From the NCBI GenBank assembly GCA_009838845.1, contig VXRD01000138.1, positions 1-42,017 of the forward strand: a DNA stretch of 42,017 nucleotides. Direction: 5' to 3'. The DNA is from Gemmatimonadota bacterium. Its GTDB lineage: Bacteria; Latescibacterota; UBA2968. Position 1 is the stretch's first letter. Every line of letters starts with the position of its first letter. The notes below the pieces were generated by a model that saw only the letters and a list, made by a program, of their open reading frames with translations, was not told where the DNA came from and did no database searches. This document shows, one piece after another, positions 12,672 to 28,300 of this stretch. The position numbers and the translations under genes are program-made.

Positions 12672-12693
12672 ACACTTCACACTTCACACTTCA
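12672..12693. repeat. Heptamer tandem repeat abutting a stop codon
   Basis: Three copies of CACTTCA (minus strand TGAAGTG) follow the stop codon of the amidohydrolase-like gene directly; the TGA itself is the first triplet of the array. See the finding on stop-proximal tandem repeats. Confidence 0.7.
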
Positions 12694-13455: not shown

Positions 13456-13565
13456 GAATCTACGAATCTACGAATCAGCGAATCAGCAAATCTACGAATC
13501 AGCGACGCAGTTCTGACTAACTTTGGGGGGCGAGGCGGGGTTCGTCTATTCGTCTATTCGTCTAA
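13456..13565. repeat. Dispersed octamer-array element, copy 1
   Basis: The left arm (13456-13503) holds six tandem octamers of the form GAATCWRC/GAATCTAC. A G-rich core follows (13504-13541, with GCAGTT, AACTTTGGGGGG, GGCGGGG). The right arm (13542-13565) holds tandem GTCTATTC octamers, whose complement GAATAGAC resembles the left unit, so the arms are imperfect inverted arrays. A homologous copy lies at 21,478-21,598. The last codons and the stop of sppA lie in the right arm. Confidence 0.85.
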
Positions 13566-15317
13566 CCGAATATCCATGGGTGTCATCTCCAAAACCTGTC
13601 GCGGCTGCCTCACTGTGCGCGCAAAGTGAAAAACGGGTTGCAACTCTGTGGTGAGTCTCTCCAACGCATCGTCCCTGCTCAGCGTGCGGATCAACCCTTT
13701 TTCCATCACCTGTTCTATTAGCGTCTTTTCTTTGGGAAATACCACGAGATTGAGAGATGCATCAGCTTCCAATTCCAATGCCTCACGAATCAGACTCATC
13801 GCAGTCTTCATGCCGCCCAATTCATCGACCAGGCCATGCGCTTTGGCATCCTCCCCAGTCCAGATTCGTCCCTTTGCCACGGCGTGAACATCGGCCTGTG
13901 ACATGTCGCGCCCCTCTGCTACCTTCGCCGTAAAATCTTCATAAATGCGGTCCAACCACGTCTGAAATTTCGCCCATTGCTCGGGCGTAAATTCTGCACC
14001 CGTGCCCCATATCAGCGCGTTTTCGCCTACCTGCGCCGTATCCCAGGTAATGCCCAGCCGTTCCCAAAATTCAGTTGTCACAAACTTTCCCGCTAATACC
14101 CCAATGGATCCCGTGATACTACCGGGTTGCGCCACAATTTTATCGGCATTCATCGCCACAAAATATCCCCCGGATCCGGCTACATTACCCATTGATACAA
14201 CTACTGGTTTGTCGGCCTTCTTAGCTTTGGCAACCTCGCGCCAGATCGCATCTGAGGCAACGTAAGACCCACCGGGAGAGTCTATTCGAAACAAAATTGC
14301 ACGTACATCCTTATCCTTCACAGCATCGCGAAAAGCTTTGGTCAACGTAGTTGCGCCCATTGTAGCAGACCCATATAAGGGATCGTAGGCACTCTTCCCG
14401 CGAAGCACAGGTCCCACGCCGTAGATCAACGCCACCTTTGTCCCTTCACCATAAGGTTTTTCATCAATGCGCTTGAGATAATTTTTTATATCCAACCATT
14501 TGGTATCTTCGCCATGCTCGCGCTTCACCAGACCGTGCACCTCATCCCAATACGCCAGACTATCTACCAGGCCTTCGGCATGGGCAGATAAGGCCAAAAA
14601 AGGTCCGCGGTTAATGAAATCGCGCACGGCTTCGGGCGTTGTGCCCCGCGCCTGTGAAATACCCAGGACCATCTGATCGACCATCGACTTTAAAAGTGCT
14701 TCACTCGCCTGGCGGTGTGCGTCTGTAAATTTGGTTTCGGTATATAGGTTCATCGCATTTTTATACTCATACCGGTGATCCATCTGCACACCAATCCCAA
14801 GCGAATCCAATGTTCCCTTGACAAAAGGATGCTCCATCGCCAGTCCCATCAAGCCCACATCGCCCGAGGGTTGGAGATAGATGCGCTCAAATGCCGTCGC
14901 CAGATAATATCCGACATTACCCGCCCCGAATTCGCCAAATGTCTCGGCAAAAATCGCGGTGGGTTTTCCGCTTTTTCCAAAATCCAGAACCGCATCTCTT
15001 ATCTCTTGTGCCTGTGCAAATCCCATCGCTGCGCCGCCCCCACGAGCCAGCAATCCCACAACGCGGTCATCCGAAGCCGCCGCGTCTAAAGCGCCGACCA
15101 CATCGCGCAACGAGCGCACATCGTCTGAGATTAATTTTGCAAATGGATCTTCGGGCACATACTCCGCAACCCCTTGCTCCAGGTTGATCTCCAAAATCAC
15201 CTGGTCGGGCACGGGATCTTCGCCAGATAGCAATACAACTGACAAGATGGTCAGGGCGACCAGCCCAACCGTAATCCCACCAATCCACGCCAAAATTCGA
15301 CCAATTTTCCTGCGCAT
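13554..15317 (-). CDS. sppA: Signal peptide peptidase SppA, 67-kDa type
   Basis: A membrane-bound serine protease that digests cleaved signal peptides. The single N-terminal transmembrane anchor is residues 8-30. The tandem peptidase S49 halves of the long (67K) form are both present (about 40-290 and 295-560). The catalytic dyad is visible: Lys186 in YEYKNAMN of the first half and Ser382 in NVAGSGGYF of the second. The length of 587 is normal. The start has AGGAGG six nt upstream. The last residues (LDE) and the stop are encoded within the octamer repeat array. It is a single gene, with a palindrome in the promoter region and the terminator of the DUF1854 operon just upstream. Confidence 0.95.
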   Translation of the reverse strand: MRRKIGRILAWIGGITVGLVALTILSVVLLSGEDPVPDQVILEINLEQGVAEYVPEDPFAKLISDDVRSLRDVVGALDAAASDDRVVGLLARGGGAAMGFAQAQEIRDAVLDFGKSGKPTAIFAETFGEFGAGNVGYYLATAFERIYLQPSGDVGLMGLAMEHPFVKGTLDSLGIGVQMDHRYEYKNAMNLYTETKFTDAHRQASEALLKSMVDQMVLGISQARGTTPEAVRDFINRGPFLALSAHAEGLVDSLAYWDEVHGLVKREHGEDTKWLDIKNYLKRIDEKPYGEGTKVALIYGVGPVLRGKSAYDPLYGSATMGATTLTKAFRDAVKDKDVRAILFRIDSPGGSYVASDAIWREVAKAKKADKPVVVSMGNVAGSGGYFVAMNADKIVAQPGSITGSIGVLAGKFVTTEFWERLGITWDTAQVGENALIWGTGAEFTPEQWAKFQTWLDRIYEDFTAKVAEGRDMSQADVHAVAKGRIWTGEDAKAHGLVDELGGMKTAMSLIREALELEADASLNLVVFPKEKTLIEQVMEKGLIRTLSRDDALERLTTELQPVFHFARTVRQPRQVLEMTPMDIRLDE

Positions 15318-21477: not shown

Positions 21478-21598
21478 ACGAATCAGCGAATCAGCGAATC
21501 AGCGAATCAACGATGGAGTTTGTAACAACTTGGGGTGGCGGGGCGGGATTCGTCTATTCGTCTATTCGCGCTTTTCTCGTCTATTCGTCTATTCGTCA
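21478..21598. repeat. Dispersed octamer-array element, copy 2
   Basis: The left arm (21480-21511) has four GAATCARC octamers. The G-rich core (21512-21548) matches copy 1 in AGTT, AACTTGGGG and GGCGGG. The right arm (21549-21598) holds tandem GTCTATTC octamers interrupted by CGCTTTTCT. It lies between the PPTase start and the DUF362 stop, the same gene arrangement as copy 1. Confidence 0.85.
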
Positions 21599-25367: not shown

Positions 25368-28300
25368 TCACCACTCCTTCTTCCAGAATAACCCTACCGA
25401 TCCTCGCCTGCGTCGATTCACCTCTTCTATCTGACTCGCTTCCAATATCACTTCTGGGAAGATCTCAAACTCCATCGCCGCTTCATAAGCCGTGCTCGAA
25501 AAATCCTGTGCATAACTTATAAACAACCTGTCCCCAATATACTTGCCCAATCTAATCCTGGGGAGAAGGCGGCCCTCGCCACTATCGATCTCCACCAGAT
25601 CCAGACGCAATTTTTGCCCAATGTGCCGCCCCAGGCGATTTGCAACAACCCCCGCAACCAGATCCAGCGTATGATCGCGGGAAAACGGAAAATGACCAGC
25701 CGGTCTGCCTGTCAACAGTAGAGATGCAATATTCCCCACATCCTCTCCAAGTGGCTGATCGCTGTCAATGTCAAACGAAATCTGAGGATACGTCAATGTC
25801 CCCGCCACTGTGACAATAATATCGACAGGTCCTGGCTTCTCGCCTACTGCAGTCACAGCGCGCACGCGTGTCTCGGCGCGAATATCCAGATCGGGATTCC
25901 AGTCAGGTCTGCCCTGAAATTGAATTTCACCTCGTGTAATACGCAAGCGGCGGTTTTGCCAGATGTAATTGCCCTGGCGGCTTGACATCGTGCCATAAAT
26001 ACGCGAATCTTCGCGATTTTTTATCACATCCAGATCGCCCCCAATTTCCACCTCAAAGGTCGGGTCGCGCAACCACACCTGTCTGTCGGCAGACACTTGC
26101 AGGTGTATTTCCGGATCCCTCAGAAATGTCGGCATTTCCGGGCTCGGTTCTTCAAACAATTCCGTCAAGCGAATCTCCGCCTGTTTCGTCGCCAGGCTCG
26201 GTACTCCGAGCAATTCCGCCAGGCGAATCTCTGCCTGTTTCATCGCCAATTTGCCCACAACTTTGATGCCCTGAAGCGTTCCAGCGATCTGCAATTGACC
26301 ATCTGTCACAAGTTGTAATTCGGGCAGGGCAACCGGTTCAAAATCGCGGAATTGTGCAGACAAATCCCATCTGCTCGGCAAAAAACCCTCAAGCATTATG
26401 TCACCTGAAAGATTCGCCGAAGTCCCAATCGAAAGACTGTCAATCTGAATTTTTCCGTCGCCAATCACAGCACGTCCCGAAACAGGTTTGTGAGAGCGAT
26501 GCAGATCGGGCAGGTGGAATACCCCATCTCGAATTTCGATCTCTCCCCGAATGTCCGGTTGCTCAAAACGACCGCGCGCCTCCAGATCGAACGATAACAT
26601 CCCTGAAATTCCCTCATCGGCACCAAAAAACGCGTTTGAGACTGTGCCAAATGTCAATCTATCGGATCGTTTTATTCCGACCAATTCTGTTTTTTCATCC
26701 GATAGGTTCGGGCGCGTCTTCAACCCGATCCCCTCAGATCGAGCGCGCAGGTGCATATCACCTGTACCTGCAATGGGAAAACTGCCAAACAGTGCCAGCA
26801 TCTCATCTCCATGAGGTGCGACTTTCACTTCAAAGTGTATCCTGTCATTGCCCAGGGACATCTCTCCTGCGGCACTATCAAATCCCACACCCGATATTTT
26901 GCCCTTTGCAAGAGCGAAATGAATAAAAATAAGGGGATCAGTCAATGTGCCAGCAAAAAGCACTTCACCATTGAGAATACCCCCCATACCTGAAGCACCC
27001 GCCAGAAATGCCCAGGGGCGCAAATCCAGATCTTTTAACAATACCTCTACAGTCGCCTGAAAACCCTGTTGATCCCGCGCAATCAGACGCCCCGCTGGGC
27101 CAGAAAGCACCAGATGCCCGATGTGAACGCCCCGAGATGGCGAATACGCAAATCGAACAGGCCCTTCGTTGTGCAGCACGACCTGATCGACCTTAATGTA
27201 CAGCGAATCCATTGCCACCTGGAAATGATCTTCTTTTTGCCCTGCGCGCCCCTGAAAAAAGACCCGGTCATCTACTTGCGCGCCGTTACCCAACAAAAAT
27301 GATGTTTCGCCATGTGCGTACACCGCCTCGAAAAACACCTCTTGCAATGAACGTTCACCCCAGGTCAAACGATCCACTTGGAGGTTAATAGCACCCGAAT
27401 CAGGCCGCGCCCACTGCGTCTCTATCGTAAGGTTTTGTATTGGAATGCCCGCTACGACGAGGCTATCTGCGCCACCTTGTGCAGAAAAACCGGGTGTATC
27501 CAACGTTCCCGACCATGTGCCCGATAGGACCAACGTCCCCGATAAATCCACACCCACCACCTCACCTATCGCCTCTAAATCCCGTACATCCATCAGCCAT
27601 TGGCCCTCGGAATGCCGATCAATATGCCCCTGAGAGGAAAACACCCCACCCGTCCCCGACAGATTCGCGCGAATATCAGATCGTCCCTCAGAATTGACCA
27701 ATGCAGAAATGTGCAAACTATCAGCTGCTGCATTGCCCGTGATATTCCCCCTCAATTCAACCGTCAAATCGTCTCCTGTGATGCCATCCACATTTCCAGC
27801 AAGCGTCAGCGATGTACCCCATCTGTTTGTACCCGTTAAATGTGGCAACGCCACCTCCGCCTGAACATTCCCCGCAATAGCTGGCTTTTCTCCTTCAAAA
27901 TGCAACTGCCCATTTCCATTGACGCGCGTTCCCCAATTCTGCAATTGTGTCTCAAAATGATCGATAAAAAGCTGTTGATCTACATATCTCGCACCATCAA
28001 TACGCCCCGTCACGCGCCCGACTTTTTTGGGCACACCGGGTAAATGTTCAGCATATAGATCGCGGAATCGCATTTCCCATTTCCCATTCCAGGTGGTCAA
28101 CCGCGCTTCCCCATTGCCCACTATATTGCCACTTGGCCCATTAGCAGTGACCTGCGTTCGCACCAGGTCATTTGCCAAATTGACGGCAAAACGCACGGAA
28201 TCGAATCGCGCATCCCCAAACTGCACGCGTCGAAAAACACCCCCAGCAACGGCATTTTCTACGCCAGAGGAATCCACCGCGAAAGTGATCATCCCATCCA

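Follow-up and report, generated by a model that had tools for sequence, protein, structure and literature searches.

A short non-coding element, about 70-170 bp long and made of two inverted octamer arrays flanking a G-rich core, is present in at least 60 copies in the chromosome of this uncultured Latescibacterota bacterium. Comparison of orthologous loci suggests that it is a recently spreading, non-autonomous element, because orthologous sites are mostly empty in relatives, an 87-bp copy recurs letter for letter at a second locus, and array lengths differ between species. Taken as a whole, we consider it probable that this is a non-autonomous, lineage-specific dispersed repeat that is copied into gene-end gaps and whose survival is shaped by translation.

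Two copies lie in the window, that is, the whole stretch of 42,017 nucleotides analyzed here. Copy 1 (13456-13564) is located between sppA (13554-15317, minus strand, Peptidase_S49) and an amidohydrolase gene, which are co-directional on the minus strand. Its left array (13456..13503, plus strand; sequence and TRF) consists of six GAATCWRC-type octamers in the order GAATCTAC GAATCTAC GAATCAGC GAATCAGC AAATCTAC GAATCAGC, AAATCTAC being the fifth and one unit having a single change. The core (13504..13543, plus strand) carries G runs at 13525-13540 in a pattern matching other copies, and the right array (13544..13564, plus strand; sequence and TRF) has two and a half units, GTCTATTC GTCTATTC GTCTA. 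Read on the minus strand this right array is (GAATAGAC)n with a TAG in each unit, and it supplies the stop codon TAG of sppA (13554..13556, minus strand); the C-terminus R-L-D-E-stop lies inside the right arm, L-D-E being encoded by the element and the junction. The first-pass annotation had described six octamers, a G-rich core and inverted octamers, with the right arm encoding the last residues and the stop of sppA, and both points hold at this site. It had also noticed the same design 8 kb away, which corresponds to copy 2 (21480-21597), between a DUF362 gene and a phosphopantetheinyl transferase gene, again co-directional on the minus strand. Here the left array (21480..21511, plus strand; sequence) has three GAATCAGC and one GAATCAAC, the core (21512..21551, plus strand) has G runs at 21532-21547, and the right array (21552..21597, plus strand; sequence and TRF) reads 2 x GTCTATTC, a GCGCTTTTCTC spacer, 2 x GTCTATTC and GTC. 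The two copies have a common plan, with the GCGCTTTTCTC spacer in the right arm of copy 2. The stop codon TGA of the DUF362 gene (21596..21598, minus strand) is at the copy 2 junction; it is TAA in relatives with an empty site.

Copies fall into two classes: class I has GAATCWRC to the left and GTCTATTC to the right of the G-rich core, while class II has the arms swapped and a core sequence of its own (GGGAGGATGGGCGGGG). An invertible core was rejected on these grounds, class II being a subfamily. The inverted symmetry of the two arms is imperfect: GAATCWRC and GTCTATTC pair at 6 of 8 positions with a 2x2 mismatch per unit, the variable R preserving an A-T or G.T pair. The arms can thus pair as 6-bp blocks separated by 2x2 mismatches, and this block pattern is found in the best DNA fold of copy 1; the folding energies of whole copies did not improve on those of shuffled sequence (z about -1). 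Smaller modules were also observed. A second palindrome, ATGAACTGGYC...GRCCAGTTGTACMCCGCTCC, is placed within octamer arrays at nearly always one fixed point of the unit (L091, L065, L230 and others), with 4-17 matches per genus genome and 77 in G007, and one of its stem pairs covaries (T-A / C-G). A third module, GTCATTGCGGC...GCCGCAATCCAGA, forms a palindrome left of the G-rich core in many copies (L059, L071, L079); we take it to resemble the widespread GTCATTGCGAG...GCAATCC palindromes.

A two-octamer pattern gave 251 matches in the 5.75-Mb genome of the window (G000) and none in that genome read backwards, so the octamer arrays of copy 1 are not due to chance. A core-plus-arm search of the same genome returned about 62 anchored copies, and a strict G-run core had 58 matches, against 0 in the control; the genome-wide search proposed in the first-pass annotation therefore yields many further copies, and the idea does not fall for want of them. 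Arrays and cores are present in all eleven genomes of the genus. The sister species G003, 97.5% identical at the locus used for the tree, has 9 strict cores versus the 58 of G000, a difference which points to recent spread within one lineage or to loss in the sister. In the same family, G014, from another genus, displayed 94 two-octamer matches, some of them long, and one strict core, so arrays may exist there without this core; the remaining genera tested had neither arrays nor cores. An exact scan of GTDB genomes found at least 36 loci, a lower bound as only exact matches were counted, in records named Latescibacterota or Latescibacteria and in one record set called Gemmatimonadota. No kin of the element was found in phage and plasmid records, the core-plus-arm pattern had no match in IMG/VR, and a literature search by octamer strings returned nothing relevant. 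Two Burkholderia records (L233, L234) hold a plain (CGAATCAG)n microsatellite with no core, and were rejected as convergent and not kin.

The copy 1 site is empty in 8 of 10 relatives, the sister species included. In these eight it reads CCTCCTT-TATT-ACCGAATATCC or close to it and sppA ends CGG-TAA, whereas G000 has the element in place of TATT; the insertion alters the protein end, sppA gaining L-D-E compared with the empty relatives. Of the other two relatives, G004 has an element with a different core and array at the matching point and the outlying G008 has a decayed one, sppA ending RLDE-stop in both as well. A tree of the 2 kb adjoining this site places G000 as sister to the empty G003 and G004 as sister to the empty G002, both with full support; therefore at least two changes have taken place there. 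The simplest reading would be repeated insertion into the sole tolerated gap of a few bases, although transfer between species may be an alternative. At the copy 2 site, no such element was present in any relative read. Moreover, when the flanks of 16 further copies are joined, they match G003, G001 and G006 mostly without a break, which means an empty site, and two copies (C89 and C126) share a letter-identical 87-bp unit, GCGAATC...ATTCGTC, within unrelated flanks. The inverted repeats at the ends of this duplicate are only 6-7 bp long (GCGAAT / ATTCGTC). No target-site duplication was seen at the approximately 16 sites compared, where relatives are 3-10% diverged and junction details are soft; insertions often lack a few spacer or target bases relative to empty sites, and several empty relatives already hold GAAT or ATTC at one junction. 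The mobile repeat family that had been proposed for this DNA is supported by the large number of copies, the empty orthologous sites and the identical copy at two loci. The other proposal, a recombination or replication signal, gains no support, the copies being species-specific and placed at gene ends.

The bodies of the element also change where the site stays the same. In one case flanks and core are common to G000 and G001, whose left arrays have 8 and 7 units, respectively, in a different variant order; the body in G006 is another one there, and G003 lacks the element. At a second site G000 and G001 have a common core and both arms different, and at a third the cores of G006 and G000 differ, with an extra hairpin in G006. 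Array length thus varies and bodies are replaced at fixed sites, and the absence of length variation, which would have spoken against the first-pass idea, is not what is seen between species.

The survival of copies at gene ends may be linked to how the repeat unit reads in translation. Since an 8-bp unit shifts the reading frame at each repeat, three units of the GAATAGAC arm are enough to present TAG in every frame. On one strand the same holds for a stop codon in each arm type except GCAGATTC, and the other strand is open in all arm types. Gene strand was called by codon usage, which was right for 107 of 107 window segments, these being its own training genes. With these calls, gene ends that face the GAATAGAC arm terminate within the array in 18 cases and at their own stop in 15, versus 3 in-array and 17 own stops among those facing the GAATCWRC arm (Fisher p = 0.008). 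Among the 21 genes without their original stop, the orientation is 18:3 toward the GAATAGAC arm (p = 0.0015), the three facing the other arm being at L042, L043 and L072; among genes that kept their own stop it is random (15:17). Most in-array stops lie at a depth of 6, 14 or 22 bases, which corresponds to one step for each frame. With a looser rule that takes the longest open frame, the association was weaker (p = 0.20); this rule picks spurious antisense frames running through the arrays, and the result of the test depends on the gene calls. The first orientation counts, made with longest-ORF calls (26 vs 9), were replaced by those from codon usage because long antisense frames are common here.

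We read the orientation bias as survival selection, in which the loss of a stop to an insertion is tolerated if the array provides another; the element would often survive at gene ends because its repeats supply a new stop in every frame. As there is a TAG in each GAATAGAC unit, reached in any frame within three, a change in unit number leaves the protein end as it was while about three units remain. The point at which the protein ends depends on the junction rather than on the unit count, and array slippage should not normally change it; variable protein ends by slippage, one of the roles suggested in the first-pass annotation, are generally unsupported. The three-frame TAG of the GAATAGAC arm and the stop-orientation bias are new in this analysis.

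In the mechanism that we propose, the whole unit of about 70-170 bp is copied into the short gap between the stop codon of one gene and the ribosome-binding site of the next, a step shown by the empty orthologous sites and the identical copy at two loci. The arrays, whose change in length is observed, would then lengthen and shorten, probably through replication slippage, and the bodies seen to change would be exchanged between copies, slippage and recombination between copies being the likely processes. The element would most likely travel as a single-stranded hairpin or as a product of replication template-switch, and not by a cut-and-paste transposase, since there is no visible target duplication and a few bases are often replaced. 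An insertion that destroys a stop would be tolerated when the (GAATAGAC)n arm faces the gene, in agreement with the orientation test. It is conceivable, and we propose it only tentatively, that the element spreads itself, its 8-bp arm having been selected as a portable three-frame stop cassette, and that an unrecognised mechanism free of transposase replaces the spacer from stop codon to ribosome-binding site.

Elements similar to REPINs, which a RAYT or a different Y1 transposase of the IS200/IS605 type moves in trans by acting on single-stranded hairpins, would share the inverted, pairing-capable design, the lack of target duplication, the preference for gene ends and the nested hairpin palindromes with one covarying pair. 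G000 does have a single Y1 gene, IS200/IS605-like; however, the 1.2 kb of surrounding sequence that was read holds no octamer arrays. A search for Y1 with E up to 0.001 also gave no hit in G003, G005, G007, G008 and G010, and these five genomes, out of eleven in the genus, all bear arrays. The ends of the element also have no GTAG-tagged palindrome: palindromes tagged with GTAG or CGTC are absent as a unit, both motifs occurring only as parts of octamers. We regard this explanation as unlikely, and the check for a mobilising transposase that the first-pass annotation suggested found none. For an IS91-type Y2 transposase there was no match, with none in the control genomes either.

A classic MITE, derived from an insertion sequence by deletion and mobilised through its terminal inverted repeats by the DDE transposase of that sequence, would account for a short, non-coding, intergenic element in many copies (50-100), with short inverted ends RCGAAT...ATTCGT(C) and a recent identical copy. 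The missing target-site duplication at the sites compared and the frequent loss of a few target bases speak against it. So does the absence, among the copies read, of any larger form whose arms enclose a gene, and we find a MITE distinctly unlikely.

It is more doubtful still that the element is not mobile at all, its copies being intergenic octamer microsatellites that grew by local slippage from short seeds and converged on the same units. The array-rich, core-poor genome of G014 would fit, and so would the GAAT or ATTC already in place at empty junctions. Other tandem families fill the same gene gaps in other species, CATCCTGTTCATCCTTCC arrays and ATCTGCG arrays being observed there (L212 in G003; L147, L149, L151). 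Nevertheless, shared complex cores and an exact 87-bp copy at unrelated loci cannot arise from local slippage, which contradicts such an origin for copies with a core; loci that have arrays only may have arisen in this way.

It is very improbable that the element has a regulatory function (in mRNA processing, as a terminator or in control through a G-quadruplex) for which selection places and keeps it at gene ends: that position and the cores, in which G-run columns are conserved at 0.79-0.99 and spacer columns at 0.43-0.79 (86 distinct cores, from a collection that required eight G in sixteen), would agree with it, but copies are not conserved at orthologous sites of close species, Rfam gave no match up to E = 1, and an RNA energy model predicted a quadruplex in 42 of 92 cores versus 29-40 after shuffling, a slight excess, so that the column pattern, although that expected of a two-layer G-quadruplex, is suggestive only and hardly supported by the model.

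Returning to the dispersed repeat that we favor, the closest described design would be, by likeness of plan, the convergent GGGAATC arrays of Xanthomonas (PMC4692102). Inverted arrays of this heptamer, and GGGGA(C/T)T arrays in Nostoc, consist of short tandem units scattered through intergenic gaps. They frequently form a convergent inverted pair, overlap a stop codon in some cases and rarely lie between divergent genes; their length varies between close species, they have G-quadruplex potential, and no mobiliser was reported (PMC4692102). Our element is similar in its convergent pair of tandem arrays between genes, near stop codons, with length varying between species and no known mobiliser. 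However, in Xanthomonas and Nostoc the repeat unit itself is G-rich, whereas here the units, which are not, flank a separate G-rich core. The unit is not a GGGANTN heptamer with a G tract but GAATCWRC / GTCTATTC, of 8 bp instead of 7, with a stop in all three frames and two arms unlike each other. REPINs and the GTAG and CGTC REP families are small, intergenic, inverted, hairpin-capable elements of high copy number and lineage-specific, and the CGTC families likewise have no dedicated transposase (PMC3116915, PMC3733652). The element described here is also small, intergenic, inverted, abundant and lineage-specific, with pairing predicted for its arms and folding at the level of shuffled sequence; it differs by having tandem octamer arms in place of a GTAG- or CGTC-tagged palindrome of 20-40 bp and by showing no RAYT linkage. 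The BrickBuilt MITE of Porphyromonas gingivalis carries, in the same manner, a tandem repeat within a small intergenic mobile element (PMC4596501), but it has one 23-bp tandem repeat with a leader and a tail, in contrast to two inverted 8-bp arrays around a core.

These results offer a testable reason why frame-shifting short tandem arrays gather at bacterial gene ends, namely that they can replace a destroyed stop codon, and they document an intergenic repeat of fast turnover in an uncultured sponge/marine phylum. The differences in presence and absence between sister species could be used to learn how repeats with no recognised transposase spread.

Other repeats were also observed. A heptamer array, (ACACTTC)3, lies at window positions 12672-12693, at the 3' end of the amidohydrolase gene adjoining copy 1, and GAAGTGTGAAG was found again in several loci. 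In addition, a TamB-domain gene contains two tandem 54-bp copies that are 85% alike (window 26141-26248).
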